The notes under the pieces were generated by a model. The model did not search any database. It was not told where the DNA came from and was given only the letters and a program-made list of their open reading frames with translations. From assembly GCA_900320345.1 (NCBI GenBank), contig ONRZ01000004.1:25062-89061 (forward strand): a stretch of 64,000 bases of DNA, read 5' to 3'. The stretch is from an uncultured Lachnospiraceae bacterium (lineage in GTDB: Bacteria; Bacillota; Clostridia; Lachnospirales; Lachnospiraceae). The position numbers and the translations under genes are program-made. Positions 9,149-37,428 of the stretch are shown one piece after another; positions within the stretch are counted from its first letter, which is position 1, and each line of letters starts with the position of its first letter.

Positions 9149-9823
9149 TACCGAAACTTCTTCGGCGGCTTCCTTCTTAAATTCCTCTATCCTGTCCGGA
9201 CTGGCGGTAGGAAGATCGTCGAGCGACGTGACATTGAAGCTCCTTAAAAATTCCTCCGTAGTACCGAAAAGCAACGGACGTCCCGGAGCCTGAAGACGGC
9301 CCAGTTCGGTAATAAGTCCGTATTCCACCAGTTTGTTCACCGCATGGTCGCAGCTCACTCCCCTGATCTTCTCGATCTCAAGCTTCGTGACAGGCTGCTT
9401 GTAGGCGATTATGGACAGCGTCTCAAGCATGGAATCGGTAAGCGAATATGATTTCGGAACCTTCGCGATCTTGATAAGATACTCATACATCGAAGCCTTG
9501 GAACACATCTGGACCGAATCCTCTAACTCTATTATGGTAAATCCGCAGTCGGGATCATTATCATAATCGTCCTTGAGTTGATAAACAAGCTTCTTCGTTT
9601 CCTCCACGTCGCGTCCGAGGACTGTGGCAAGCTTCTTATACTCCACGGAATTGCCCACGGAAAAAAGTACCGCGCCTATAACCGCCTTCGGATTATCAAC
9701 AGGCTTTACTTCAGCCGTTTCCTCTGCAGTGCTCTCTTCTTCGGCTGTACCCTCTTCTTCCGCGATCATCTCTTCCTTATTTATTTCTTCGGTTATTTCC
9801 TTACTTTTCTTTTTCCCAGCCAA
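9134..9823 (-). CDS. scpB: Segregation and condensation protein B
   Basis: A winged-helix kleisin partner of SMC and ScpA in chromosome condensation and segregation. Residues about 44-229 match ScpB, with AVIGAVLFSVGNSVEYKKLA at the start of the first winged helix and SIIAYKQPVTKLEIEKIRGV in the second. The first 40 residues are an unusual acidic stretch of Glu, Thr and Ala with a Lys-rich start. The start is not certain: the frame opens with TTG at 9823 and a weak site, and an ATG at 9766 preceded by AAGGAAGAG is possible and would remove most of the acidic tail. It lies 76 bases after scpA. Confidence 0.92.
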   Translation of the reverse strand: MAGKKKSKEITEEINKEEMIAEEEGTAEEESTAEETAEVKPVDNPKAVIGAVLFSVGNSVEYKKLATVLGRDVEETKKLVYQLKDDYDNDPDCGFTIIELEDSVQMCSKASMYEYLIKIAKVPKSYSLTDSMLETLSIIAYKQPVTKLEIEKIRGVSCDHAVNKLVEYGLITELGRLQAPGRPLLFGTTEEFLRSFNVTSLDDLPTASPDRIEEFKKEAAEEVSVKLGI

Positions 9824-9899
9824 AATTCAACCCACTCTGTTTTATAATATCTTAACGGCGCCCGGTCCCGTCACCGGCCTTATCCGTGCCACCTCATGC

Positions 9900-10649
9900 C
9901 TAAGCTGCCATCCTGGAAGTGATCATTATATCATCAAAAAGCGCTTCCTGCACTATCATTATCTGCCCAAGCTTCATCATCTCAAGTATCACAAGGAAGG
10001 TGACCACTATATCCATCTTGGAATTCTGCTTCTCGAGAAGATCCCTGAACCCGAACTTCTTATGACATTTTATATAATCCTGTATATATGCGGTCTTATC
10101 TTCAAGGCTTACTTCATCCTTCTCGATCTTACCGAATTTGCTCCTTATCGGATCGATCTTGTCAACCTGTCGTTTCATCATCGACTTGAATATCTGGTTC
10201 AGTTTGGCAAGATCCATGTCACCTATCAGCTGCGAATAGTCTATCGGCTGCTCGTAATCCTCTATCTCCTTGGGCATTGAAGGCTTCTTGAAAAGAGTCC
10301 TTCCCGCATCCATATGCATATCCTTAAGTTCATAGGACATATACTTGTACAGCTTATACTCGATAAGCTTCTCGACAAGTTCAGCCCTCGGATCTTCCTC
10401 TTCTCCGTCTTCATTGACTTCCTTGGGAAGAAGCATCCTGCATTTGATATCAAGGAGCGTGGCCGCCATTACCAGAAATTCGCTCATCACATCAAGATTG
10501 GCATCCTGCATCTGCCTGATATAGTCAAGATACTGATCCGTGATCAATACGATCGGAATATCATAGATGTCCACCTTGTTCTTCTCGATAAGATGGAGCA
10601 GCAGATCCAGCGGACCTTCAAATACCTGTAGTTTGACTGTTAAGCTCAT
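9900..10649 (-). CDS. scpA: Segregation and condensation protein A
   Basis: A 249-aa kleisin that bridges SMC heads. The N terminus (VFEGPLDLLLHLIEKNKVDIYDIPI) is the conserved SMC-binding region. An acidic middle (NEDGEEEDPRAE) and a C-terminal winged helix (FLVILEMMKLGQIMIVQE) follow. GGAAGGAAG precedes the ATG at 10649. The gene follows the phosphoesterase by 14 bases and precedes scpB; its SMC partner is at 41695-45255. Confidence 0.95.
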   Translation of the reverse strand: MSLTVKLQVFEGPLDLLLHLIEKNKVDIYDIPIVLITDQYLDYIRQMQDANLDVMSEFLVMAATLLDIKCRMLLPKEVNEDGEEEDPRAELVEKLIEYKLYKYMSYELKDMHMDAGRTLFKKPSMPKEIEDYEQPIDYSQLIGDMDLAKLNQIFKSMMKRQVDKIDPIRSKFGKIEKDEVSLEDKTAYIQDYIKCHKKFGFRDLLEKQNSKMDIVVTFLVILEMMKLGQIMIVQEALFDDIMITSRMAA

Positions 10650-10663
10650 AACTTCCTTCCTTC

Positions 10664-11569
10664 TTACTCCGTATTCCCCTTATCCTCTTCACTCCTGTAC
10701 AGATCTATGATGATGACCTCAGCCTTGTTGTTCACTCGCACAGGCACGGTATGTGTCCCGAGCCCGCGGCTTAAGATCATGGTCGAGTCCCCGATCTTAA
10801 ACACCCCCGCATCATACTTCGGAAACAGCTTAAGCTGCGGTGATATCACTCCACCGAGCAGCGGTATGTTCACTATCCCGCCATGTACATGTCCAGACAG
10901 TACATAATCCGGCTTCCACAATGCATATTTATCAAACTGTTCCGGATTGTGAGCAAGCAGCACGGAAACCCTTGATGTATCATTCTCCCCGAACTTACCC
11001 TTAAGATAGTCATCGGGTATCCAGTTGGTCTTAAGCTTACGGTAATACTCATGCTCCAGATCGAGTCCGTACACATCTATACCGGCCGGTTCGATCGATA
11101 CTTTCTCATCAAGGAGCATCCTTACCCCCATATCCGAAAGATCCGATACAAACCTGTCGTATTCTCCGGGGAATTCTTCGGGACACCGCCTTAACTTCTC
11201 CTCGTGATTCCCTATCCCGTAATAGATCGGATATTTACGCGCAAGTTCACCGATAAACCGCAATGCGTTACCGTCATGGTATACGGGCTCCATGCTCGAA
11301 GTGACCATATCACCCGCAAAGAACACGGCATCCGGCTTCTCATCATCGATGGCCTTAAGTACTTCCTTATTGTCATCTCCGTGCACATGATCGTGAAGAT
11401 CGGATATTACCGCCATCCTGAAATGTCCGGTATTTAACTTACTGTTCACAAAACCGTATCTTACTATCCTAAAGCCCCTGCTCTGCTCATACACAAACCA
11501 TGCGATAAGCGCCAGCAGAACAACCGCCAATATAAGAATCGCCTTAACAGGCGCAAGAACAAGCACCAT
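10664..11569 (-). CDS. Membrane-anchored metallophosphoesterase
   Basis: A 301-aa calcineurin-like phosphoesterase with one N-terminal membrane span (residues about 6-28). The metal-binding motifs appear in order: DLHDHVHGD, GDMV, GNHE, a His in LLAHNPEQFD, and GHVHGG. The family resembles YkuE/YaeI-type enzymes, some of which act on UDP-diacylglucosamine or other phospholipid-like substrates; the substrate here is unknown. The start at 11569 is preceded by GGAG eight bases away; a longer frame starts upstream without support. It stands between rpsU and scpA. A -10-like TATAAT (11594-11599, minus strand) lies 25 bases upstream. Confidence 0.9.
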   Translation of the reverse strand: MVLVLAPVKAILILAVVLLALIAWFVYEQSRGFRIVRYGFVNSKLNTGHFRMAVISDLHDHVHGDDNKEVLKAIDDEKPDAVFFAGDMVTSSMEPVYHDGNALRFIGELARKYPIYYGIGNHEEKLRRCPEEFPGEYDRFVSDLSDMGVRMLLDEKVSIEPAGIDVYGLDLEHEYYRKLKTNWIPDDYLKGKFGENDTSRVSVLLAHNPEQFDKYALWKPDYVLSGHVHGGIVNIPLLGGVISPQLKLFPKYDAGVFKIGDSTMILSRGLGTHTVPVRVNNKAEVIIIDLYRSEEDKGNTE

Positions 11570-25783: not shown

Positions 25784-26287
25784 TCAAAGCCCCTCCGGAA
25801 CATGTACCGTCATTATCCCGCCTTCCGTGTCAACGGACAGGATACATTGTTTTATGGCCGGAAGGAGCAGTTCTCCTCCGCGGCATAAATTTATCACATA
25901 AACATCATTGGCGCCGGTCTCAAGCACATCACTCAATATACCCAGCTCGTTACCGTCTTCCTCCACGACCTTCATATCTATCAGGTCGGCTATGAAATAC
26001 TCATCCTTCTTTAACCTGACGGCATTTTCCCGTGTCACATAAATGCTGTGTCCCTTATATCTTTCAATATCATTGATGCTGTCATGATCCTTAAACTTAA
26101 GTATTACAAACTGTTTGAAGAACTTGACTCCTTCAATCTGCATCTCCTTAAGTCCGCTGCCCGTATCAAGCAGGACCGACTTAAGCTTCTTAAATCTTGC
26201 CGCATCATCGGTTGTGGGAAATACCTTCATCTCACCGCGCACTCCGTGCGTCGAACTGAGTATACCCACCTGAAGCATCTGTTCCAT
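25784..26287 (-). CDS. rimM: Ribosome maturation factor RimM
   Basis: A 167-aa 16S rRNA processing factor that binds S19 and assists 30S maturation. The N-terminal beta barrel starts LQVGILSSTHGVRGEMKVFP. The PRC-barrel half has KKDEYFIADLIDMKVVEEDG and ends LLPAIKQCILSVDTEGGIMTVHVPEGL. In related genomes it directly follows khpA in the ffh-rpsP-khpA-rimM-trmD-rplS operon; here a 10.8-kb element separates them, and trmD and rplS do not follow. AGAGGAGAGG precedes the ATG. AT-rich DNA upstream contains possible -10 boxes (TATTAT) that could restore transcription. Confidence 0.95.
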   Translation of the reverse strand: MEQMLQVGILSSTHGVRGEMKVFPTTDDAARFKKLKSVLLDTGSGLKEMQIEGVKFFKQFVILKFKDHDSINDIERYKGHSIYVTRENAVRLKKDEYFIADLIDMKVVEEDGNELGILSDVLETGANDVYVINLCRGGELLLPAIKQCILSVDTEGGIMTVHVPEGL

Positions 26288-26370
26288 GCCCTCTCCTCTT
26301 TAAACCATACTATAATACATAATACCATTTCTATCATAGATTTAAAAGAAAAAAAGCATAAAGGCGGGTA

Positions 26371-26385
26371 GTCTAAGGGATTTTT
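26371..26385 (+). repeat. Left end half-site (attL-like) of the element
   Basis: Reads GTC-TA-AGGGATTTTT on the plus strand. The right end at 37128-37142 reads GTC-AT-AGGGATTTTT on the minus strand: 13 of 15 positions match, in inverted orientation. Both junctions share the direct triplet CTA (26373-26375 and 37136-37138), a plausible crossover core. Confidence 0.65.
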
Positions 26386-26400
26386 AATCCCCAAAAGAAT

Positions 26401-26426
26401 CGGCATAGTTGGAATAACATTTCCGG

Positions 26427-26434
<8 letters not shown>
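26401..26434. terminator. Hairpin over the recombinase stop codon
   Basis: CGGCATAG (26401-26408) and CTATGCCG (26427-26434) pair perfectly; the recombinase stop lies in one arm. TTTTATTTT follows on the plus strand and ATTCTTTT on the minus strand, so it may end transcription in either direction and insulate rimM from the element. Confidence 0.55.
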
Positions 26435-28142
<1,708 letters not shown>

Positions 28143-28301
28143 TCATGACGCTATTTTCATCATTTCATCGAGATTACCCAGAATCAGCCGCTTTACCTTG
28201 TCGGCGGCTGTCTCTTTGGCACTGTCAGCAGTCACGGATTCTATGACGAAAAGAATATCGCCAATATATGTACTTGTGGTGTGAATGGCTTCAAGTTCCA
28301 T
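28143..28301 (-). CDS. TnpW-like transposon-encoded small protein
   Basis: A 52-aa protein (MELEAIHTTSTYIGDILFVIES..., then SAKETAADKVKRLIL). The pattern of a short beta-rich start followed by AKETAxxKxxRLI resembles TnpW proteins encoded beside TnpX-type recombinases in Tn4451-like elements; their role is unclear. AAGGAGGAG stands before the ATG at 28301, and a longer frame upstream is unsupported. It lies about 80 bases before the recombinase start and probably belongs to the same module. Confidence 0.65.
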   Translation of the reverse strand: MELEAIHTTSTYIGDILFVIESVTADSAKETAADKVKRLILGNLDEMMKIAS

Positions 28302-28550
28302 AAGCTCCTCCTTCCGACAAGCAAACCGCACAGCCGGTTCCTTTGTACTATTTCTGATTTGTCATTGATACATGAATGCTGTGATACCCCCAGGGGGAGG
28401 GAAAATCCCTGTGACTATATTTCTTCCGGAACGGCGGGGGAGCTTCGCACGCAAAATCGCGAAATCGAAAGTGAAATTACCCCTCAATCGGATGAAATAT
28501 AGCTATACAGAGATAAATCCCTTATAAATACTTCTTTGAAAAAGCTGAAA
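28302..28550. other. Non-coding region with inverted repeats, possible transfer-origin remnant
   Basis: About 250 bases with no convincing gene. It contains a palindromic TCGCGA inside AAAATCGCGAAATCG, the GC-rich string ACGGCGGGGGAGCTTCG, and a CCCCCAGGGGG palindrome near 28387-28397. Such GC-rich hairpins beside mobilisation genes are typical of origins of transfer in clostridial elements, and parts of the string resemble those I have seen near relaxase genes. No relaxase gene remains here. Confidence 0.35.
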
Positions 28551-29570
28551 TCAAGCGTTTTCAGATATCTTAACCGCTTTTACGGCATCGCTTCGGATCA
28601 GCTTACCATCAAAGAACTCATAGGCAAGATATCCGATATGCCCGGTGTTCAGATAAAGTTCCTTCAGTATCTGCATTGATACGGGATCCCTGTCAATGAT
28701 CCAGTAGTATGAGAAATCTCCGAAAACTACAGGCTTATTACCCAACTCGATATCAGGCATATATTCTGAAATCACGACCGGCTTTCCGAGAATCGTATAT
28801 GTAGTAGCGTTCCAAAGATAGTTTCCGACTTCATCTTTGAGCGTTCTCAGGTGCAGTGCTGTCGTATCGTTCATCAGCTATACGGCATTTTTGCGATACT
28901 TCCTGTCGGTAGAATGATATAAGGTGAGCATATCGTCATAGGTAAGAGTGGAAGCGGTAAACGCCACATCAGCTCCGCCGGTATCAGCAAGGATTCCGAC
29001 CGGTTCGTCTGCCCCAGTTCCCGTAATAAAACCTTTGTCTTCGGCGCGACCGAAATTCTTTCCAAGACGGTCGATAAGATATTTTTCGATAGAGAAGCTT
29101 GCATACCGGTTGGTTGCGTGTCCGAAATACAATTCGATATGGTTATTGGGATTCTTCTGATAAAATTCCCGAGCTAATGTGATTCTGCCTTTGGTTTCAT
29201 CCTTTATAAGTGGAAGACGGTCGTTATCACAAATACCCAAGATATGAATTCCGTTTCCGCTGGGAGAGGTTTCCGCATAGGTGTCATGCCTTTCAAGAAG
29301 AAGCTGAATAAAGCTGTCTTCAAGCGGTCTTCCGTCAATGTCAAGGAAATACATATTGTCCGGGATCTTAAAACCGATGCCGGCCACGCCGTGCTTTTCC
29401 TTTGCAGCTATCGCAGAATCATAATCCGTCCAGGTATTGCTGTAGTTATCCGAAGTGCCGGTTATGCCGCCGTTTGCAGACATCGGAACTTTGGTCTTTT
29501 TGCCGTTCTTTCCCAGTGCGTAGTTCCATAAAAACCAGATTTTCTGTTCTTTGAGCTCATCTAATGTCAT
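28551..29570 (-). pseudogene. Chimera of a primase-polymerase N terminus and a phage HK97-type capsid C terminus, with an amber codon
   Basis: One open frame of 339 codons broken by a TAG at 28878-28880. Residues 1 to about 155 resemble primase-polymerase-like N termini of integrative elements: MTLDELKEQKIWFLWNYAL, FLDIDGRPLED, ETSPSGNGIHI, NPNNHIELYFG. After NRYAS the sequence switches to a HK97-fold major capsid protein: SIEKYLIDRLGKNFGRAED, EPVGILADTGGADV, and after the amber codon LRTLKDEVGNYLW, YTILGKPVVISEYMPDI, VVFGDFSYYWIIDR. Relatives have Phe or Trp at the amber position (KNAV*LMND). The ATG at 29570 is preceded by GGAGGAGG. Function as a unit is unlikely. Confidence 0.8.
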
Positions 29571-29608
29571 TTCCCGTTTCACCTCCTCCTTTTAGATTTT
29601 GATTCTCT

Positions 29609-29785
29609 TCATTCCTTTACCGCTGTTCTAATCAGCCACTCCCTGAATGCTTCTACAGGTATCAGTATCCTTGCTCCAACCTTAATGGTTGGGAATCCGG
29701 GTTTCTTCACGAGCTCATATGCCTTCGGAAGGGATATGCCCATCTGTGCAGATAATTCCTGCACGCTCATGGTTGTTTTTTCCAT
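29609..29785 (-). CDS. Excisionase-like helix-turn-helix protein
   Basis: A 58-aa DNA-binding protein of the MerR-like excisionase type: MSVQELSAQMGISLPKAYELVK, then the wing GFPTIKVGARILIPVEAFREWL. Such proteins direct recombinases towards excision or act as small regulators in integrative elements. GGAGG precedes the ATG at 29785; the longer frame from 29845 is not preferred. Its promoter overlaps that of the divergent cargo operon. It lies 38 bases upstream of the primase/capsid chimera. Confidence 0.82.
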   Translation of the reverse strand: MEKTTMSVQELSAQMGISLPKAYELVKKPGFPTIKVGARILIPVEAFREWLIRTAVKE

Positions 29786-29829
29786 CGCTGTACCTCCAAT
29801 TGTGTTGTATGTATTTGTACAAGTTTTTA

Positions 29830-29858
29830 TTGATTTCATCGCCATTTTAGACTACAAT
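29830..29858 (+). promoter_or_regulatory. Promoter of the plus-strand defence operon
   Basis: TTGATT (29830-29835) and TACAAT (29853-29858) are 17 bases apart on the plus strand, 70 bases before the start at 29928. It overlaps the divergent promoter at 29844-29872. Confidence 0.65.
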
Positions 29859-29872
29859 GTAACCGGTGTCCA
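29844..29872 (-). promoter_or_regulatory. Promoter of the excisionase-like gene
   Basis: On the minus strand TGGACA (29867-29872) and TAAAAT (29844-29849) are 17 bases apart. The -10 boxes of this and the divergent promoter lie in each other's spacers, so the two cannot be used at the same time by two polymerases. Confidence 0.5.
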
Positions 29873-29927
29873 AAAACAGACGGTAACTCTAACGGCAACG
29901 CATAAGATGATTAATTGAGGTGTAGTA

Positions 29928-31049
29928 ATGCCACTTAACTGGAATGATGAACATATTCCATCCAAAGCAGATAAAACAACTGACATATTGGGACTTAAGG
30001 AGATTGGTGGTGTCGAGCATCTTGTATATCATCCGTTCAGATTTAAAAACTACACCTGTGATCTTGATGGTAAAGAACAGCTTGTTTACCCAGTGTGCAA
30101 GCCCGGACAGGAGCCGGAATTCCCGTCTTCTGAAGGACTCACCGGAAAGGAACTGCTGATAAGCCTCTGTAACCTTGCGAAGGTTATAGACAGTTATGAA
30201 AATAAAACGCCAAAGGAACAGCTTATACTTAAGTGGTGTATGGAGAATATGCATCCATATAGGGTAGACTTCATCTACTCCGAGCTGTCGCAGGACTTCG
30301 ATATCAATTCTGTTATGGCGGATATAGTGGAGCGTGATGGAATATTTGAGATAGAGCGGTTCATGAAGGATCTCGGAAGCTTGTATAACGCTGTCCGCTT
30401 CTATGTGGCGCTTGAAGGCTTGATCTATTCTGATGATGAAATAGCTTATAACCTCTATGCGGAAGGGCGCTATTTTGAGAGCTATAACTATTTTGAAAGT
30501 TATAAGCACTCTGCACCTGAGATTCCGGATGATGTTATGGAAGGAATTGAGTCATCCTCAAAGAATATAGTGGAGCAAATGCAGCGAGTAAATGAATATA
30601 TCGAAAAACATCCTGCGAAGCAGCCACCTGAAGGTGAATTTGATTTTTACCATAATCCGTATGACGATTATGACGAACTGCGCACGAAGCTTGTAGATTT
30701 CATCCCGGATTTCAATATGAGGCTAAAATTCAACTCTGCTACTGGCAGATTTGATTTTTCGGCTGATATCGATTCTGTGTTTGATATAGCATGGTACACG
30801 CTGGCAAGGATGATTTCAGAGGATCCGGCACTTGAAAACCGTCAGAGAGAAGAATCGAGACCGGAAGGAATCATGATCTGCTGCAGGCATTGCGGAAAGT
30901 TCCTGATCCGGCGCAGTAATCGTCAGGAATTCTGTGATTCCGAAGAATGCCAGAGAGCCAGAAACGCAAGAAAACAGATGGCATATCGGAAACGGAAGGC
31001 GAAAAACGCTTCGGAAAAGAAGCACAGACGAAAGAAAACGAATGGATAG
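29928..31049 (+). CDS. Uncharacterised protein with C-terminal zinc finger (DUF6076-like)
   Basis: A 373-aa protein I cannot assign a function. The N-terminal 300 residues are mixed helical and acidic (starting MPLNWNDEHIPSKADKTTD) with no catalytic motif that I recognise. The C terminus holds CCRHCGKFLIRRSNRQEFC followed by an acidic CQ, a four-cysteine CGNR-like zinc finger, and then a very basic tail (RKQMAYRKRKAKNASEKKHRRKK) suited to binding nucleic acid. It may belong to the group annotated DUF6076. GAGG lies seven bases before the ATG. It is first in the cargo operon, 46 bases before the methyltransferase, so a regulatory or defence accessory role is an inference only. Confidence 0.8.
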   Translation: MPLNWNDEHIPSKADKTTDILGLKEIGGVEHLVYHPFRFKNYTCDLDGKEQLVYPVCKPGQEPEFPSSEGLTGKELLISLCNLAKVIDSYENKTPKEQLILKWCMENMHPYRVDFIYSELSQDFDINSVMADIVERDGIFEIERFMKDLGSLYNAVRFYVALEGLIYSDDEIAYNLYAEGRYFESYNYFESYKHSAPEIPDDVMEGIESSSKNIVEQMQRVNEYIEKHPAKQPPEGEFDFYHNPYDDYDELRTKLVDFIPDFNMRLKFNSATGRFDFSADIDSVFDIAWYTLARMISEDPALENRQREESRPEGIMICCRHCGKFLIRRSNRQEFCDSEECQRARNARKQMAYRKRKAKNASEKKHRRKKTNG

Positions 31050-31095
31050 CAAAAGTGTCAGCAGTGATGACTCTTTTCAAGATAGGAGAAATAAT

Positions 31096-32184
31096 ATGAC
31101 AACTCATAGCGTAATAACGGCAAATAGCAATAATATGAGCGAACTTGAAAATAGCTCAATCAATCTTATAGTTACATCTCCGCCATATCCTATGATAGAA
31201 ATGTGGGATGAGATGTTTTCTGAGCAGGATCCGAGTATTAAAACATGTCTGGAAAGCGGTGATGGAATGTCTGCCTACAATAAAATGCACGAGATTCTTA
31301 ACTCCGTTTGGAAAGAATGCGATAGAGTCCTAAAGGATAACGGTTTTGTTTGTATAAACATAGGAGATGCCACTCGTACTCTGGATGGAGAATTCCAGTT
31401 ATTTTCCAATCATACCAAAATTATTGATTGTTTCCAAAGCATGGGCTACAGCGTATTGCCGGACATTCACTGGAAAAAGCAGTCTAATTCTCCCAATAAA
31501 TTTATGGGATCAGGTATGTATCCGGCAGGTGCATATGTAACTTATGAACATGAGTATATTCTGGTATTTCGCAAGGGTGGAAAGCGGGTCTTCAAAGGAA
31601 AAGAAAAAGCATTACGGCAAAAAAGCGCTTTTTTCTGGGAGGAAAGGAATATTTGGTTTTCTGATTTGTGGGATATAAAAGGAACATCTCAAACTATGAA
31701 TATTACAACAAAGGGAAGAGATCGAAATGCTTCCTTCCCTCTTGAGATACCCTATCGTCTTGTAAATATGTATTCTGCAGAGGGAGATACCGTGTTGGAT
31801 CCATTCCTGGGTTTAGGAACGACAAGCCTCGCGTGTATTCTTTCCAAGAGAAATAGTGTTGGCTACGAAATAGATCAAGATGTTGCGACTACAGCATTGG
31901 AAAACATGAATATATCTGTATGTACTGCAAACAAATTCATAGATGCCAGAGTGAAGAGACACCTTGAATTTATAAAGAGTTTACCATCTGATAAAAAGGA
32001 AAAGTGTTATCGAAATGGTCCTCATGGATTTGATGTTAAGACTCGACAGGAAACAGCCATAGAGTTTGACCAGCTAAAAAAGATTAATAGAATAGATGCT
32101 GGGTACAATTGTGAATACTCTAAACTTGAAATCAGCTCAGACCCAGAACAATTGTCATTACAATTAGCAGCGAACGCAATGTAA
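31096..32184 (+). CDS. Type II DNA methyltransferase, probably N4-cytosine, CTAG-type
   Basis: A 362-aa amino-methyltransferase of the beta order. The catalytic motif TSPPYP is at 27-32 and the SAM-binding motif DPFLGLGTTSLA comes later, near 235. SPPY rather than NPPY fits N4-cytosine enzymes such as M.MjaI and M.MthZI that modify CTAG. The presence of two MjaI-type endonucleases in the same element supports this specificity. The ATG at 31096 is chosen for AGGAGA six bases upstream; a longer frame overlaps the previous gene. It would protect host DNA. Its endonuclease partners are 3 kb away, convergent, beyond the Gabija genes. Confidence 0.85.
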   Translation: MTTHSVITANSNNMSELENSSINLIVTSPPYPMIEMWDEMFSEQDPSIKTCLESGDGMSAYNKMHEILNSVWKECDRVLKDNGFVCINIGDATRTLDGEFQLFSNHTKIIDCFQSMGYSVLPDIHWKKQSNSPNKFMGSGMYPAGAYVTYEHEYILVFRKGGKRVFKGKEKALRQKSAFFWEERNIWFSDLWDIKGTSQTMNITTKGRDRNASFPLEIPYRLVNMYSAEGDTVLDPFLGLGTTSLACILSKRNSVGYEIDQDVATTALENMNISVCTANKFIDARVKRHLEFIKSLPSDKKEKCYRNGPHGFDVKTRQETAIEFDQLKKINRIDAGYNCEYSKLEISSDPEQLSLQLAANAM

Positions 32185-32296
32185 AAAAATGAACAGGGTT
32201 TTAATGTATGCGTATTTTGCGGAGCAAAACGGTAGCAGTGTATAGCGAGTGGACTCGTGCGATTTAAATATACAAGCTAAAAGGAAGAGGATCAAA

Positions 32297-33937
32297 ATGA
32301 CAATAAACAAGATTGTTGTCCGAAATTATAAACTTCTTGAAAATGTTGTAATCAGACTCAACCCTGATGTAAATATTTTTGTCGGGGACAACGACTCCGG
32401 AAAAAGCACTATTTTGGAGGCACTCAGTATTCTCACTACGGGGAAATTGAACGGTTATGCTTTTGAGCGCCAACTGAGAGCAAACATGTTTACCAGTACT
32501 GTACGTACTAATTATATCAAGAGAATACTGCATGGCGAGGAGATTTTTCCACCTGAAATAATTTTTGAAGCGTATTATGATGGTGATCCAATTTACAAGG
32601 GATCTAATAATACTCTTTCAGAGCCAGAAGCTATAGGCATCAACATTACCGTTCACATTGCGGAAAAGAATACAGAATTGTACAAGCAAATGGTTAAGAA
32701 CGGCGATATTCTGGATATACCGATAGAACTCTATACAGTAGATTACCATTATTTCAATGGCGAACCCTTTACATTTACCTACAGATATAGCCCTTTCAAA
32801 AGTGTGTTTATCGATACTACACGAAGGAATTATGGCGGGCTGGTCGATCATTTTGTTTCTGACAGCATTTCGGACACACTAACTGCCGACCAGATAAGAG
32901 ATCTTTCGATCGCTTACGGTGTTAGCAGAAGAAGTTTTCATGACAACGAAACAATCAGGCAACTGAATGAGACGGTTCGGCAGAAAGCTGTTGTAAAGGG
33001 ACGTGAGGTATCTCTGGATCTTCGCGAAGATGATCCGGAGGCATGGAAACGACAAATGTCGGTTGTTGTGGATACTATTCCCTTTGAGCTTATTGGATTT
33101 GGCACGCAGAACATAATCAAGATAGAACTGGCGTTGCGTAATGCGGATGAACAAGCGGATTTAGTACTTATGGAAGAGCCAGAGAATAATCTTTCCTTCT
33201 CGAATATGGCTATACTTATAAACCATATTACCCAATCAAAGGGAAAGCAGGTTTTCATATCTACACATAGTAGCTATATTGCAAATAAGCTCAGTCTGAG
33301 TAAAGTAATTCTTGTTCGAGCTGGTGTAGTGAGCCCATACTCCGCACTTCCCGATGATACAAAGAAATACTTCGTGAAGCTCCCTGGTTATGATACGCTT
33401 CGTTTTATCCTTTCATCCAAAGTTATTCTTGTAGAAGGCCCAACTGATGAGCTTATCATCCAAAGAGCGTACTTTGACAAACACGGAAAACTACCTTCAG
33501 AAGATGGTATTGATATTATTACCGTTGACTCCTTGGCATTTAAGCGCTATTTGGATATTGCTGTCCTGATGGAGAAGCCAGTTGTAATCGTTACTGATAA
33601 TGATAAGAATATTGAAAAAAATATAAAAGAAAAATATAGAAATTACCAACATCCGTTCTTTAGATTCTATTACGAGCAAGATGAATCTTTGAATACTATT
33701 GAACCGAGTGTTCTGGCTGCAAATTTGGATGAGGCTGGACAACCGACAGAAATATTCAAGAAGGCAATTTCCTCGAGCGACTCTATGATGAATAGAGGTT
33801 GGCAAGGTGTGTTGGATTTTATGTCTGCTCCAGCGAATAAAAGCGAATGGGCTTACCGAGTGTTTGAAGCAGAAGAAAAGATTAACTATCCGGAGTACAT
33901 AACAAATGTCATCAAGTATTTTGAACAACACAGCTAA
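32297..33937 (+). CDS. gajA: GajA-like OLD-family ATPase/endonuclease (Gabija)
   Basis: A 546-aa ABC-type ATPase fused to a Toprim nuclease. Walker A GDNDSGKST is at 30-38 and Walker B VLMEEPENNLS near 290-300, followed by the FISTHSSY switch. The Toprim acidic residues are E380 and D384 in VEGPTDE and D434/D436 in VTDND. Size and order match GajA of Gabija, a sequence-specific nicking enzyme held in check by nucleotides until phage infection depletes them. The ATG at 32297 follows GAGG; a GTG 48 bases earlier is less likely. It overlaps the helicase gene by 32 bases, as the two usually work as one complex. Confidence 0.87.
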   Translation: MTINKIVVRNYKLLENVVIRLNPDVNIFVGDNDSGKSTILEALSILTTGKLNGYAFERQLRANMFTSTVRTNYIKRILHGEEIFPPEIIFEAYYDGDPIYKGSNNTLSEPEAIGINITVHIAEKNTELYKQMVKNGDILDIPIELYTVDYHYFNGEPFTFTYRYSPFKSVFIDTTRRNYGGLVDHFVSDSISDTLTADQIRDLSIAYGVSRRSFHDNETIRQLNETVRQKAVVKGREVSLDLREDDPEAWKRQMSVVVDTIPFELIGFGTQNIIKIELALRNADEQADLVLMEEPENNLSFSNMAILINHITQSKGKQVFISTHSSYIANKLSLSKVILVRAGVVSPYSALPDDTKKYFVKLPGYDTLRFILSSKVILVEGPTDELIIQRAYFDKHGKLPSEDGIDIITVDSLAFKRYLDIAVLMEKPVVIVTDNDKNIEKNIKEKYRNYQHPFFRFYYEQDESLNTIEPSVLAANLDEAGQPTEIFKKAISSSDSMMNRGWQGVLDFMSAPANKSEWAYRVFEAEEKINYPEYITNVIKYFEQHS

Positions 33938-35066
33938 GATGTCGGCTGCTGGTTCTGGAAAGACATGGGATATATGCCATGACGCATTACAAGCAGTTAA
34001 GAACAGCAATAAAAGGGCTTTGATTCTATCCTTTACTAACCGAAGCATAGAGTCGGCCAGAAACGAAATCAGAAAGCAGAACGGAAGTGTTCTCCACCCA
34101 CAAATTGTGGCAAAAACATGGTATAGATTCTTACTTTCTGATATGATTAAGCCTTACCAGACGGGTATAACCAACGGGAGAATAAATCATATAAAGTCAG
34201 TGGATTTCTCAGAGCAATTTGGGCAAGTGAATAGAAATAAAGCTGGAAGTTATGCACGCTATATCACTTCAGGAAAGAATGTCAGATCAAATCAGGCATC
34301 GGAATTAGCAGTACTTCTCAATAGGCTTAGTAGCGGGATGAGCATAAAGCGCTTGGAGGGAATCTACAGTAATATCTACTTTGACGAGATTCAAGATTTG
34401 GTTGGTTACGATATAGACCTTTTACGGTTGCTTATGGAATCAAAAATTGCCATCACGTGTTGCGGGGATAGCAAACAAGCAACATTCACAACACATGTGG
34501 CAAAAAAGAATAAGAAACAGGCAGGGAAAAATATCTGGGTGTTCTTTAGTGAACTTGAAACCGAGGGTCTTGTGCAAATTGAACGAAAACTTGCCAGTCG
34601 AAGATTCAATCGTGATATCTGCTGCTTTGCTAATGCAGTATATCCTATTGGAGATGCAATAACGACAATCATGGAGGATGTCACCGAACATGACGGTGTG
34701 TTCTTGATTGATGAGGTTGATGCAGATATTTATAGTGAATACTTTTGCCCACAGATTCTTCGATTTGATGCTCACACAAAAATAGTCAAGTCATGTCTTA
34801 ACTTTGGTGCCTGCAAAGGTGAGACTTTTGATAGAGTTCTTATATATCCGAATGGGAAGCTAAGTGACTTTATTTTGAAAGACAAGGCTTTAGACCATCC
34901 AGAGAAATATTATGTGGGTGTAACTCGACCGAGATACAGTATAGCGTTTGCGATGAAAAAACTTCCTGCTCAATTAAGTAGATATGAAGAGGTAGTAATC
35001 TCAATTGCGGGAAATGAAATAAGAGCGTTGAAATATCAAGGTATTACATTTCCGGTTGCACACTGA
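33906..35066 (+). CDS. gajB: GajB-like UvrD-family helicase (Gabija)
   Basis: A 386-aa superfamily 1 helicase with all main motifs: Walker A SAAGSGKT (13-20), motif Ia LSFTNRS, motif II DEIQD (160-164), motif III GDSKQ (187-191), motif V CKGETFDRVLI and motif VI YVGVTRPR. Paired behind an OLD nuclease this defines Gabija. It is shorter than typical GajB (about 490 aa), lacking some insertions, but no catalytic motif is missing. The start inside gajA (33906) keeps the first beta strand before the P-loop and has GGAG ten bases upstream; a second ATG at 33939 would lose it. In Gabija, GajB senses DNA ends and activates GajA. Confidence 0.85.
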   Translation: MSSSILNNTAKMSAAGSGKTWDICHDALQAVKNSNKRALILSFTNRSIESARNEIRKQNGSVLHPQIVAKTWYRFLLSDMIKPYQTGITNGRINHIKSVDFSEQFGQVNRNKAGSYARYITSGKNVRSNQASELAVLLNRLSSGMSIKRLEGIYSNIYFDEIQDLVGYDIDLLRLLMESKIAITCCGDSKQATFTTHVAKKNKKQAGKNIWVFFSELETEGLVQIERKLASRRFNRDICCFANAVYPIGDAITTIMEDVTEHDGVFLIDEVDADIYSEYFCPQILRFDAHTKIVKSCLNFGACKGETFDRVLIYPNGKLSDFILKDKALDHPEKYYVGVTRPRYSIAFAMKKLPAQLSRYEEVVISIAGNEIRALKYQGITFPVAH

Positions 35067-35263
35067 TTAGCGTCGATAACGGGGGCAAGTTGCCGCGAAA
35101 GCCTTTTTGTATATTCGCAATGAAATGCGTCGGCATCTACCATCAAGACCTGAAAAATGCGCATACTTATGCGTCATATTATCTATAAGCATCGTTATCG
35201 GAATTATAATGTACTACAAGTACTTACAGCACTTGCCAAATATGATGCTCATAAATAGAAAAA

Positions 35264-35863
35264 TCAATAAGCGTCTTCTTCTATCTCAATCTCTAACCCA
35301 TCAGATGTTTTCACATAATATACCATTTTAACTGGGATCTTTTCTTGTAATTGTACCATGTTCTTATAAGAAACTGGTTTCACAGAATAAGCGGTCTCTC
35401 CAACGTACCCATCTATTCCCTTGGATTCTTCTTCTGGCGTTGCTAATCTATATGACATTTTAGATAATTTAGCAAGGTATGCCAAAATGGTTTTCTGGTG
35501 ATAAAGTCCGTAATATGTTTTATCAATTATTAGATCCTCAACATATTGTCCGACTAAATCCTTGTCTACTTTTGAAACAGCATTGATCATTTGTTGCAAT
35601 TTGGCATATGCCTTATCTGTAGCTTCCGCAACAGCATCTGGATACTTGTCTAAATACCACTTTTTCCACGCTTCCAATGATTTGTCATCGGATTCTTCAA
35701 GGAATTGTTGAAACAACTGGGACATATTGCCTACATTCTCCTTACGAGTCGCATGCGAATATCTGTTACTATAATTCATGAAATCACTCGTATATGTAGG
35801 ATATTCCGTTTTTGGACGTCCATTTAGTTTATCAATGGATTTGTTTGGAATTCTCTTTTTCAT
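35264..35863 (-). CDS. MjaI-family restriction endonuclease, copy 2
   Basis: A 199-aa protein parallel to copy 1. Conserved stretches are YPTYTSDFMN, ENVGNMSQL, EAWKKWYLDKYPDAVAEATDK and the C-terminal core ATPEEESKGIDGYVG, YSVKP. The Asp and Lys of a PD-(D/E)xK-like site could be D151 and K162, at the same residue numbers as in copy 1. MjaI cuts CTAG. The N-terminal TRPKVVG of copy 1 is TRKENVG here, so specificity or dimer surface may differ. It follows copy 1 by seven bases. It could be a second nuclease, a heterodimer partner or an inactive decoy. Confidence 0.8.
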   Translation of the reverse strand: MKKRIPNKSIDKLNGRPKTEYPTYTSDFMNYSNRYSHATRKENVGNMSQLFQQFLEESDDKSLEAWKKWYLDKYPDAVAEATDKAYAKLQQMINAVSKVDKDLVGQYVEDLIIDKTYYGLYHQKTILAYLAKLSKMSYRLATPEEESKGIDGYVGETAYSVKPVSYKNMVQLQEKIPVKMVYYVKTSDGLEIEIEEDAY

Positions 35864-35870
35864 TTCATTC

Positions 35871-36461
35871 TTAATCCTCTACCTCAATCTTTAGTCCTGT
35901 TTTCGTCTTTGAATAATAAATCATCTTAACATCAATTGTCTCGGAGAGACGACTCATTGTTTTGTAAGTGTCCGGCTTAACAGAATAAGCTACACCGCCA
36001 ACATAACCATCTATGCCTTTGGCCTCTTCATCAGGAGTCGCAAGCCGATAGTCCGTATCTTTTAGATCTGCGAGTGAAGCAAGGATCGCTTTCTGAACAT
36101 ACATACCATTAAATGTCTTGTTGATTATCAAATCTTCAACCCATTTCTGTACCATATCGCGGTCTATCAGTTGAATCGCTTCTCTAAGATTTTCTATCTG
36201 TGCATATATCTTATCGGTGGCTTCATTAAATGCATCTGGGTGATGCATAATATAGAATCTCTTCCAATACTCAATTGCAACATGTTCAGTTTTACTCACA
36301 AATTCAGGAAATAGTTCTGACATCTGGCCAACTACTTTAGGTCTGGTACCCTGGGCATTTTGATTTGCCCAGTTTATAAGCTGTGATGTATATTTGGGGA
36401 AAGAATAGTTTTCACTATTGTTATAGCCTTCGATACTCTCGTTTTTCAAATTATAAATCAT
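35871..36461 (-). CDS. MjaI-family restriction endonuclease, copy 1
   Basis: A 196-aa type II endonuclease of the MjaI group (CTAG). Recognised by FPKYTSQLINWANQNAQGTR, PKVVGQMSEL, EATDKIYAQIENLREAI, WVEDLIINKTFNGM and ATPDEEAKGIDGYVG with YSVKP. D151 and K162 are candidate catalytic residues. It lies 14 bases after the controller gene and before its paralogue, so C, R1 and R2 form one operon. The cognate methyltransferase is the plus-strand gene at 31096-32184. Expression of R behind C delays nuclease synthesis until the host is methylated. Confidence 0.83.
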   Translation of the reverse strand: MIYNLKNESIEGYNNSENYSFPKYTSQLINWANQNAQGTRPKVVGQMSELFPEFVSKTEHVAIEYWKRFYIMHHPDAFNEATDKIYAQIENLREAIQLIDRDMVQKWVEDLIINKTFNGMYVQKAILASLADLKDTDYRLATPDEEAKGIDGYVGGVAYSVKPDTYKTMSRLSETIDVKMIYYSKTKTGLKIEVED

Positions 36462-36475
36462 ATTCTTACGCCTCC

Positions 36476-36685
36476 TTATAAACCCTCGAACAATTCGGCT
36501 AATCTGATATTGAATCCATTTGCGATCTTTTCAATATTTGCCAGAGAAATGTTACGTTTTCCTGCTTCAACCGATGCATAATATGTTCGATCCATGTTGA
36601 TAGCCAACGCAAAACGTTCCTGGCTTAAGCCGAGATCTTTTCTGAGGGATTGTATTCTTTGACCAAATGCAACTTGTACCGTCAT
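36476..36685 (-). CDS. Restriction-modification controller (C protein)-like XRE regulator
   Basis: A 69-aa single-domain helix-turn-helix protein: FGQRIQSLRKDLGLSQERFALA, then RTYYASVEAGKRNISLANIEKIA, and the end FNIRLAELFEGL. Size and sequence are typical of C proteins that control endonuclease genes by binding two operators upstream of their own promoter. It starts the C-R1-R2 operon. GGAGG is about 12 bases before the ATG, rather far. A promoter and direct-repeat operator candidate lie at 36726-36774. Confidence 0.85.
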   Translation of the reverse strand: MTVQVAFGQRIQSLRKDLGLSQERFALAINMDRTYYASVEAGKRNISLANIEKIANGFNIRLAELFEGL

Positions 36686-36725
36686 AGGATACAGCCACCT
36701 CCATTTTCATTTGTATACACCCAAT

Positions 36726-36753
36726 ATTATAGCCAAAGTGGATTATAAGGCAA
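36726..36753 (-). promoter_or_regulatory. Promoter of the C-R1-R2 operon
   Basis: On the minus strand TTGCCT (36748-36753) and TATAAT (36726-36731) are 16 bases apart, about 40 bases before the controller start. Confidence 0.65.
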
Positions 36754-36756
36754 CGG

Positions 36757-36774
36757 ACTATGAGCAACACTATG
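36757..36774. promoter_or_regulatory. Candidate C-protein operator (direct repeat ACTATG, period 12)
   Basis: ACTATG occurs at 36757-36762 and again at 36769-36774, one helical turn plus two bases apart, immediately upstream of the -35 box of the controller operon. C-boxes in known systems lie at this position and often contain CATAGTCC-like sequence, present here on the minus strand. Confidence 0.45.
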
Positions 36775-36777
36775 TGT

Positions 36778-36807
36778 ATAAAAACGGGGTAGCATATCGC
36801 TACCCCG
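36778..36807 (-). terminator. Intrinsic terminator after the symE-like gene
   Basis: On the minus strand CGGGGTAGC and GCTACCCCG pair around GATAT, followed by TTTTTAT. It lies 15 bases beyond the toxin gene stop and ends just before the controller operator. Confidence 0.92.
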
Positions 36808-36821
36808 CCGATTATATGTTC

Positions 36822-37025
36822 CTAAATATTGAGTTTATCTTTACTTGTACGGATGATTATCTTTCCGTCATCATAATCCACATGGATCCTGTCTCCGACA
36901 GAGAAACCTATGGCTTCAAGCCATTTGCCTTCCATCTGGATCTTCGGCACCTCCGAATACCTTCTGCCGGTGTATCTCATGGAATACTGAACTTTGATTG
37001 TTTTGTCATGAGCGACCTCCTTCAA
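36822..37025 (-). CDS. SymE-like type I toxin, probably frameshifted near its start
   Basis: The frame encodes a SymE/AbrB-like small protein: TIKVQYSMRYTGRRYSEVPKIQ, EGKWLEAIGFSVGDRIHVDYDDGKIIIR. The best ribosome site, AAGGAGG, directs an ATG at 37009 that is in the wrong frame: it gives MTKQSKFSIP and then a stop whose TGA overlaps the ATG of residue 16 (36980). One extra A in the AAAA run after ATGAC would give MTKTIKVQYSMRY, the expected start. So the gene is either inactivated by a single-base loss, expressed by re-initiation at 36980 as a 52-aa form, or read from the weak TTG at 37025. It is the last gene before the element's right end. Confidence 0.65.
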   Translation of the reverse strand: MKEVAHDKTIKVQYSMRYTGRRYSEVPKIQMEGKWLEAIGFSVGDRIHVDYDDGKIIIRTSKDKLNI

Positions 37026-37092
37026 GCGAAAAGTGGATATGAGAGTTGTATGTTTCGATATCCTGTATCAAATTGTCATTTCCGCTTGAAGG
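37019..37092 (-). promoter_or_regulatory. Leader inverted repeat covering the symE ribosome site
   Basis: Arms of 14 bases, CCTTCAAGCGGAAA (37079-37092) and TTTTCGCTTGAAGG (37019-37032) as read on the minus strand, pair with only one G-U position. The downstream arm includes AAGG of the AAGGAGG ribosome site. The loop is 46 bases. In RNA this would hide the site and limit toxin translation. Confidence 0.6.
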
Positions 37093-37127
37093 CTGTCTGT
37101 CAAATGCCTGTAAAACCAATGTTCTTC

Positions 37128-37142
37128 AAAAATCCCTATGAC
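37128..37142 (-). repeat. Right end half-site (attR-like) of the element
   Basis: Reads GTC-AT-AGGGATTTTT on the minus strand, matching the left end at 26371-26385 in inverted orientation. Joining the inner arms gives AAAAATCCC-TA-AGGGATTTTT, and the outer arms GGGTAGTC-TA-TGACGCACC; both are dyads around a dinucleotide, as in attP and attB of serine recombinases. Confidence 0.65.
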
Positions 37143-37167
37143 GCACCAGCGAACCCGTGGTTTTTGA

Positions 37168-37428
37168 TCATTCCTTATCGGTATCGACAATATCAACTAT
37201 TACCTTCTTGGTTTCCTTGGCCGATGCCGCCTTAACGACTGTCCTTATGGTAACGACTGTCCTTATGGCCTTCGCAATACGTCCCTGCTTGCCGATCACC
37301 TTGCCCATGTCGGATTGAGCCACCCTCAATTCAACAACTATCGCATTATCATCCTCACGCTGTGTCACCGTAACTTCGTCCGGCTTCTCAACCAGTGATC
37401 TTGCGATTATCTCTACCAGATCCTTCAT
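37168..37428 (-). CDS. khpA: KH-domain RNA-binding protein KhpA (with six-residue insertion)
   Basis: An 86-aa single-KH protein that usually forms a complex with KhpB and binds RNA. The GxxG loop is GKQG (46-49). Normally the helix after it reads AKAIRTVVKAA; here it reads AKAIRTVVTIRTVVKAA because 18 bases are duplicated in tandem (37234-37268). The insertion lengthens the helix by six residues, nearly two turns, and may alter RNA binding. It lies 21 bases after rpsP and is the last gene of the operon before the inserted element. Confidence 0.93.
   Translation of the reverse strand: MKDLVEIIARSLVEKPDEVTVTQREDDNAIVVELRVAQSDMGKVIGKQGRIAKAIRTVVTIRTVVKAASAKETKKVIVDIVDTDKE
37234..37268. repeat. 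18-bp in-frame tandem duplication within khpA
   Basis: AACGACTGTCCTTATGG occurs at 37234-37250 and 37252-37268, identical over 17 bases with a period of 18. It duplicates the residues IRTVV in the protein. Confidence 0.95.

Follow-up and report, generated by a model that had tools for sequence, protein, structure and literature searches.

How does one defence system come to sit inside another, and do the two then act together? A 64,000-nucleotide (nt) stretch of contig ONRZ01000004.1 (assembly GCA_900320345.1) from an uncultured Lachnospiraceae bacterium raises this question; we call the whole stretch the window. On an inserted element within it, a restriction-modification (RM) system with predicted CTAG specificity encloses gajA and gajB, the two genes of a Gabija defence system. 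A preliminary description of this DNA had proposed that, on one element, Gabija lies enclosed by a CTAG-type restriction system, and gene families, layout and an insertion between rimM and ylqC all agree with it. The seven genes that it named are all open, with the order and strands that it claimed: the plus strand carries a zinc-finger gene, the methyltransferase gene M, gajA and gajB, and a control gene C and the nuclease genes R1 and R2 run towards them on the other strand (Table 1). Our preferred reading, to which we assign a probability of roughly 0.78, is that two autonomous systems are nested as cargo and form independent, additive layers of defence, perhaps sharing an M–gajAB transcript.

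A CTAG-type restriction system with Gabija in its M/R junction

M contains an SPPY motif and matches N6_N4_Mtase (Pfam, 8e-46) and MTase_II (PADLOC, 3e-138). The roles of the motifs named for M, GajA and GajB are those known for their families. R1 and R2 both keep a GIDG...SVK motif, the residues of which are presumably catalytic. Judged from these genes, M and the C-R1-R2 operon appear to make up a complete type II RM system of the CTAG type, with CTAG as the predicted specificity.

We compared this system with other loci, designated by L numbers. From at least 585 genome loci matched by a CTAG-methyltransferase profile, we kept the 80 best. A viral scan with the methyltransferase profile gave 17 loci, of which L016 was already in the set, leaving 16 new ones; the 97 CTAG-methyltransferase loci are thus these 96 plus L016. 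Of the 80 related genome loci, 38 have convergent M and R genes; 200 nt or less separate the two in 28 of these, and the widest gap is 1,379 nt. In the nearest relative, L039, the gap is 44 nt. In the window, M and R stand 3,079 nt apart with gajAB alone between them. The simplest reading of the locus is that gajAB inserted behind M.

Open reading frames (ORFs) of the R family, sought with an iterated R profile, are present in 47 of the 80 genome loci and two of the 16 new viral loci. Relatives of C occur at R in seven of 96 loci (L046, L078 and five others). In more distant loci, relatives of R are paired with other methyltransferases: in L029 the two genes are convergent (R 74% and M 33% identical), and in L030 the identities are 58% for R and 36% for M.

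The two nuclease genes are not a recent duplication, a possibility that we rejected because R1 and R2 share 49% identity with each other and R1 shares 88% with its L039 counterpart. Tandem R-family pairs exist elsewhere, in L046, L053, L102, L103 and L111 among the 80 genome loci and in L122 among the 16 viral ones, and L131 has one R-family gene on either side of M. In the pairs checked (L046, L053 and L122), the second gene is the weaker RE_MjaI match and thus a divergent family member. Tandem R-family pairs are possibly two-subunit enzymes; BfaI may have two subunits. In the viral-contig CTAG system of L122, an ORF that is leucine-rich by eye (L122:11192-11992) lies between M and the second R gene.

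The Gabija unit

The gajB gene overlaps gajA by 32 nt. GajA contains a P-loop and the motifs EEPEN, STHS, VEG and TDND, while GajB contains a P-loop, DEIQDL and the late superfamily 1 (SF1) motifs. Structure models have a mean pLDDT of 82 for GajA and 84 for GajB. The first Foldseek match of GajA is the OLD protein of T. scotoductus and ranks 2–6 are Gabija structures (E 3e-17 to 3e-14), with B. cereus GajA next after OLD. For GajB, the top match is a chain of a Gabija AB complex (8tk1_F, E 2e-12), followed by Rep/UvrD and further helicases. The Gabija matches have modest TM-scores (0.39–0.45 for GajA, 0.44/0.53 for GajB), which points to a distant branch of Gabija with a short GajB.

Sequence comparison with the Protein Data Bank (PDB) reaches less specific relatives. 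The GajA profile matched OLD and related ATPases, with no Gabija entry among the 60 listed of 101 PDB sequence matches, and GajB alone had no PDB sequence match at E 0.01. Taken together, the adjacent gajA (OLD ATPase plus TOPRIM) and gajB (UvrD-like helicase) would constitute a complete Gabija unit that is predicted to protect against phages.

Table 1. Genes of the island and its two borders, in window coordinates.
Feature	Position	Strand	Remarks
rimM	25784-26287	-	left flank of island
Large serine recombinase of island, one in-frame stop	26427..28100 (ORFs 27948-28100, 26427-27905)	-	Pfam Resolvase, Recombinase, Zn_ribbon_recom, DUF4368 on main ORF
Remnant, primase N-terminus fused to HK97-type capsid C-terminus, two ORFs	28551..29582	-	Phage_capsid matches
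HTH_17 excisionase-like protein, backbone	29609..29845	-	Pfam HTH_17 8e-8; 75-83% in L053, L211, L212
Zinc-finger-ended backbone protein, first gene of rightward cargo arm	29928..31049	+	relatives in L211, L053, L212, L213
M, beta-class N4-methylcytosine (m4C) methyltransferase, predicted CTAG	31096..32184	+	N6_N4_Mtase; SPPY; 75% to L039, 50% to M of plasmid pFZ1
GajA, OLD-type ATPase + TOPRIM nuclease, 546 amino acids (aa)	32297..33937	+	PADLOC GajA 8e-153; structure model
GajB, short UvrD-like SF1 helicase, 386 aa	33906..35066	+	PADLOC GajB 1e-88; best structural match 8tk1_F
R2, second MjaI-family endonuclease, 49% to R1	35264..35863	-	RE_MjaI 1e-53; GIDG...SVK kept
R1, MjaI-family endonuclease	35871..36461	-	RE_MjaI 1e-64; 88% to L039, 49% to pFZ1 MjaI-family nuclease
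C, helix-turn-helix (HTH) control protein of R operon	36476..36685	-	HTH_3; PADLOC control protein 4e-23
SymE-family small protein, right end of island	36822..37025	-	Pfam SymE_toxin 2e-12
ylqC/KH	37168-37428	-	right flank of island

The starts listed for M (behind AGGAG) and GajA (behind AGGAAG) are the likely ones and lie slightly off those of the longest ORFs.

The vehicle is a decayed island with a cargo slot

The island spans ~26.3–37.15 kb, with ~10.9 kb between rimM and ylqC. We fetched 12 genus mates for comparison, leaving out a thirteenth (G334), and rimM and ylqC are neighbours in all 12, with 5–289 bp between the matched ends. The island is therefore an insertion. Its G+C content in 1-kb steps is 37–46%, compared with 46–51% in five steps to the right and 41–48% in six steps to the left. 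The contrast is thus clear on the right side alone.

Several backbone genes recur in other loci. The N-terminal piece of the serine recombinase, which is a single frame with a single stop, is 93% identical to L212 (29 aa) and 84% to L053 (32 aa). Residues 4–164 of the primase-capsid remnant match the primases of L211 and L212, and for residues 161–234 and the ORF that follows, the matches are capsid proteins of L053, L211 and L212. The capsid, HTH and zinc-finger proteins co-occur in these three loci, with the recombinase N-terminus shared with L053 and L212 and the primase N-terminus with L211 and L212. Judged by eye, L211 has a tyrosine integrase instead of the serine recombinase and L053 a different primase-like gene. 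Fusion of a primase N-terminus to a capsid C-terminus can be taken as a sign of element decay. Given the in-frame stop in the recombinase and the reduction of primase and capsid to a fused remnant, the island has probably lost the ability to move by itself. By gene content, the vehicle would be a decayed, satellite-like capsid/primase island: its backbone parts recur in L053, L211 and L212, but the copy in the window has decayed.

The zinc-finger protein has relatives in L211 (70%), L053 (37%) and L212 (32%), and a fragment remains in L213. What follows differs: HsdM/HsdS in L211; an ABC transporter in L212; a CTAG RM system in L053 with a reverse transcriptase (PADLOC RT_VI, 9732-10724) directly after the restriction genes; and a C-like gene plus an Eco57I-type methyltransferase behind the fragment in L213. 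The zinc-finger gene thus marks the start of a cargo slot. Pfam and NCBIfam gave no match to the protein at E 0.01, and PADLOC a single weak one (E 0.0046) that covers the C-terminal end; the gene is present in three of 246 genomes of the order, the window's own among them. Since other cargo follows its relatives in L211, L212, L053 and L213, we rejected it as a defence component and regard it as a vehicle gene. The preliminary description had placed it in one element with RM and Gabija; it does belong to the same element but is part of neither system.

Two repeats lie at or just beyond the right-hand end of the island. An inverted repeat (37009-37032 / 37079-37102) covers the start and upstream side of the SymE-family gene. 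Inside ylqC, beside the insertion, an 18-bp tandem duplication (37233-37268) doubles IRTVV(T/K) in the protein.

Gabija recurs beside methylation-based systems, but the nest does not

The preliminary description had called for a search for methyltransferase-gajA-gajB adjacency with nearby MjaI-family genes. None of the 97 CTAG-methyltransferase loci shows an M-gajA-gajB-R nest. A gajA gene lies near the methyltransferase in one of them, L078 (Balneolaceae), although some of the 97 are short contigs on which a distant gajA could escape notice. L078 resembles the window in having gajA-gajB beside a CTAG-type M, R and C. It differs in that gajAB lie outside the RM system, upstream of M, and in its identities to the window (M 52%, GajA 38%). 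Given these identities and the place of its GajA elsewhere in the GajA tree, L078 represents a separate event.

We also examined 44 other gajAB loci, comprising 41 from the GajA tree and three that turned up later (L218–L220); L154, a fragment without gajB, was dropped. Near gajAB, meaning within ~3 genes by annotation, motif or homology, a methylation-based system is found in six of the 44 (L025, L036, L078, L156, L158 and L218). In L025 (L025:3408-15128), gajAB lie inside a BREX-like operon, 2 nt after PglXI, and the BrxHI ORF overlaps the end of gajB. In L218 (L218:4419-11943), gajAB begin 22 nt after BrxL, behind PglZ and BrxL of a BREX operon; this locus was counted via these two genes and not via a methyltransferase. 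The remaining neighbours are dcm-PLD-Z1 in L036, a D12 methyltransferase with an AlwI-type nuclease in L156, and a type III Mod/Res pair on the opposite strand in L158. Pfam or PADLOC confirmed all six except L078, which rests on homology to M, and L036, where dcm comes from the record annotation.

No methylation-based system was seen near gajAB in the other 38 loci, two of which (L027 and L160) lie on contigs of <4 kb; in unannotated loci methyltransferases were sought by a crude two-motif test alone, so that some may be missed. Two loci outside the six contain candidates: L143 has a Pfam-confirmed N6_N4 methyltransferase four genes upstream of gajAB, and in L142/L143 a phage-like stretch downstream of gajAB contains, three or four genes away, an unconfirmed ORF with a DPPY motif. 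Counting L142/L143 would raise six to seven or eight. An ORF 18 nt upstream of gajA in L024 looks methyltransferase-like by eye and has no match in Pfam or PADLOC. Among 16 plasmid loci, whose gene tables are incomplete, the annotated features listed include a DNA methyltransferase in L036 alone.

On a quick GajA tree of 42 rows, built before L218–L220 turned up, the adjacency label changes five times, with at least four changes forced by well-supported branches. The label is not clustered on the tree (115 of 500 shuffles were as low). Across 250 genomes of the family, M occurs in the window's genome alone, and GajA, by this profile, in three others (L218–L220), one of them being the BREX case. 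Across 392 genomes of the order, R passed the cut-off in four and GajA matched in six, the window's own being included in both. The exact nest is thus unique in the genomes sampled, while a loose association between Gabija and methylation-based systems recurs. With such a neighbour in six of 44 other gajAB loci, we rejected M as a conserved Gabija partner across the clade.

Transcript signals and CTAG sites

The 112-nt gap between M and gajA is without an unusual hairpin (z +0.5), so expression of gajAB may rely on transcription from M. Downstream of gajB, the plus strand also lacks one (z +0.3), and a hairpin with z -2.6 lies on the minus strand behind R2. In L039, the single relative on which a terminator argument for a shared transcript rests, a strong terminator hairpin stands right behind M (-18.6 kcal/mol, z -3.7). 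A home-made bulge-free hairpin scan missed even this terminator and was discarded. Terminator-like consensus sites number 11 (shuffled mean 5.6), and promoter-like matches are near chance (30 vs a shuffled mean of 23.0, sd 5.1). The preliminary description had seen a split RM system, M sharing a transcript with Gabija and the nucleases being separately controlled. An M–gajAB transcript is indeed plausible from this spacing. Separate control of M and R is unspecific, being the usual arrangement in this family: 38 of 80 relatives have the two genes convergent.

The 10.85-kb island (26301-37150) contains no CTAG, compared with 15.4 expected from trinucleotides. In 29 relatives, selected among the 38 with convergent genes, depletion is stronger in the M-R spans (three sites, 63 expected) than in the flanks (54 sites, 343 expected). 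These counts fit CTAG as the predicted target, and a lack of sites would protect the element until methylation is established. Depletion is not special to this host: the rest of the window has four sites where 24 are expected, and 12 stretches from genus mates are equally poor (five sites, 50 expected).

Do the two systems act together?

Under the reading we favour, a Gabija unit inserted into the convergent M/R junction of a CTAG RM system. M would methylate CTAG, C would delay R1 and R2, and the two nucleases would cut incoming unmethylated DNA; GajA-GajB would act separately on phage DNA ends, and gajAB may ride on the M transcript. Since loss of an RM system would be costly to the cell, the whole set may be co-inherited. 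This reading is supported by the short M/R gaps of convergent relatives, L039 included, by the same vehicle carrying other cargo in L211, L212 and L053, by the closed rimM-ylqC site in the 12 genus mates, by the 38 gajAB loci without methylation-based neighbours, and by the scatter of the adjacency label over the GajA tree. Several observations count against it. Gabija-like pairs occur inside or beside methylation-based systems in unrelated places (L025, L218, L078, L036, L156 and L158). Moreover, the flanks of gajAB matched no other locus compared, so that no insertion scar was found, and gajAB occupy the M/R junction with neither system damaged, as might equally be expected had a joint unit been selected for. 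Defence islands alone could account for the recurrent adjacency, six of 44 being a raw count.

A joint unit might work as a relay, in which R1 and R2 cut unmethylated phage DNA at CTAG and Gabija recognises the new ends and blocks their rejoining, making the nest one system. According to the available portions of the reports, Pseudomonas aeruginosa Gabija acts on linear DNA ends unoccupied by RecBCD (PMC12407980; review PMC12904381) and PMC10681800 refers to a model in which GajB acts at DNA termini; the recurrence of gajAB beside methylation-based systems also favours a relay. However, RecBCD on ends shields DNA from Gabija in the accessible part of PMC12407980, and plain restriction ends may therefore be poor Gabija triggers. 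Most gajAB loci, moreover, have no such system in view, and gajAB lie near just one of 97 CTAG methyltransferases. We consider the relay unlikely. The same goes for a wider conjecture, which we regard as doubtful: short-clade GajAB would be a plug-in end-processing module, which methylation-based systems have taken up again and again (BREX in L025 and L218, type II RM in L078 and here) because their self/non-self marking and first cutting supply the ends, with capture gone furthest in the window, where the M/R junction became one two-stage restriction system. It is far less probable still that CTAG methylation by M labels self DNA for Gabija to leave alone. In favour of this idea, LsGajA cuts the same plasmid differently depending on the Escherichia coli host of origin, with modification tentatively blamed (PMC13304284, as far as its available text goes, which itself calls the interpretation tentative). 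CTAG is rare in this host, by the counts above, and gajAB mostly lack M or any methylation-based system nearby. Control of Gabija expression by methylation or by the C protein is scarcely credible: the position of gajAB behind M allows for dependence on the M transcript, but C sits in the opposite-strand operon, promoter-like matches stay near the shuffled number, and an island without CTAG offers M no predicted site in any promoter. Neither link suggested in the preliminary description, methylation status controlling Gabija or methylation protecting its targets, thus finds support, as the island has no CTAG and 38 of 44 gajAB loci have no methylation-based neighbour. The junction is also most improbable as an assembly error. 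The genome is in 305 contigs and ~90% complete, but the locus lies on one 89-kb contig with frames intact on both sides, and it accounts for every match in the genome, one each for M and GajA and two for R.

Relation to described systems

Our reading of two nested, autonomous systems draws on parts with known counterparts. The CTAG RM system of plasmid pFZ1, which we take to be MthZI, likewise pairs a beta-class m4C methyltransferase containing SPPY with a convergent MjaI-family nuclease gene; unlike it, the window has gajAB between M and R, two tandem R paralogues and a C gene. M.MthZI has been characterised experimentally and M.BfaI and M.MjaI by unpublished REBASE work, and Cm4TAG in Haloferax volcanii is tied to HVO_0794, according to the available part of PMC5867850. 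The Gabija system of Bacillus cereus VD045 shares the OLD ATPase-TOPRIM gene followed by an overlapping UvrD-like helicase gene, as well as structural matches (8sm3, 8x5i, 8u7i and 8tk1_F). Identity in the structural alignments is only 13–15%, however, and GajB in the window has 386 aa compared with 493 (8sm3_B).

The statement in the preliminary description that no such Gabija variant had been described was too strong. LsGabija and other Gabija systems of lactic acid bacteria lie beside type I–III RM systems (PMC13304284), although the available text describes neighbouring systems and not a Gabija unit placed between the M and R genes of a single one. In the portion available of PMC12839542, OLD/TOPRIM modules serve as auxiliary effectors in BREX loci, which likewise puts an OLD-type module inside a methylation-based operon, but the host system there is BREX and in the window a type II RM system; L025 and L218 look like such loci. 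Gabija beside RM and OLD modules inside BREX are thus already in print. For the exact CTAG-Gabija nest, titles and abstract openings in the open-access literature yielded no description of a CTAG system around Gabija.

The locus clearly illustrates how one defence system can reside physically within another and leave it intact. Should the two prove simply additive, it would be one more example of mobile elements gathering defence cargo. It is also a natural construct for asking whether DNA ends made by restriction help or hinder Gabija.

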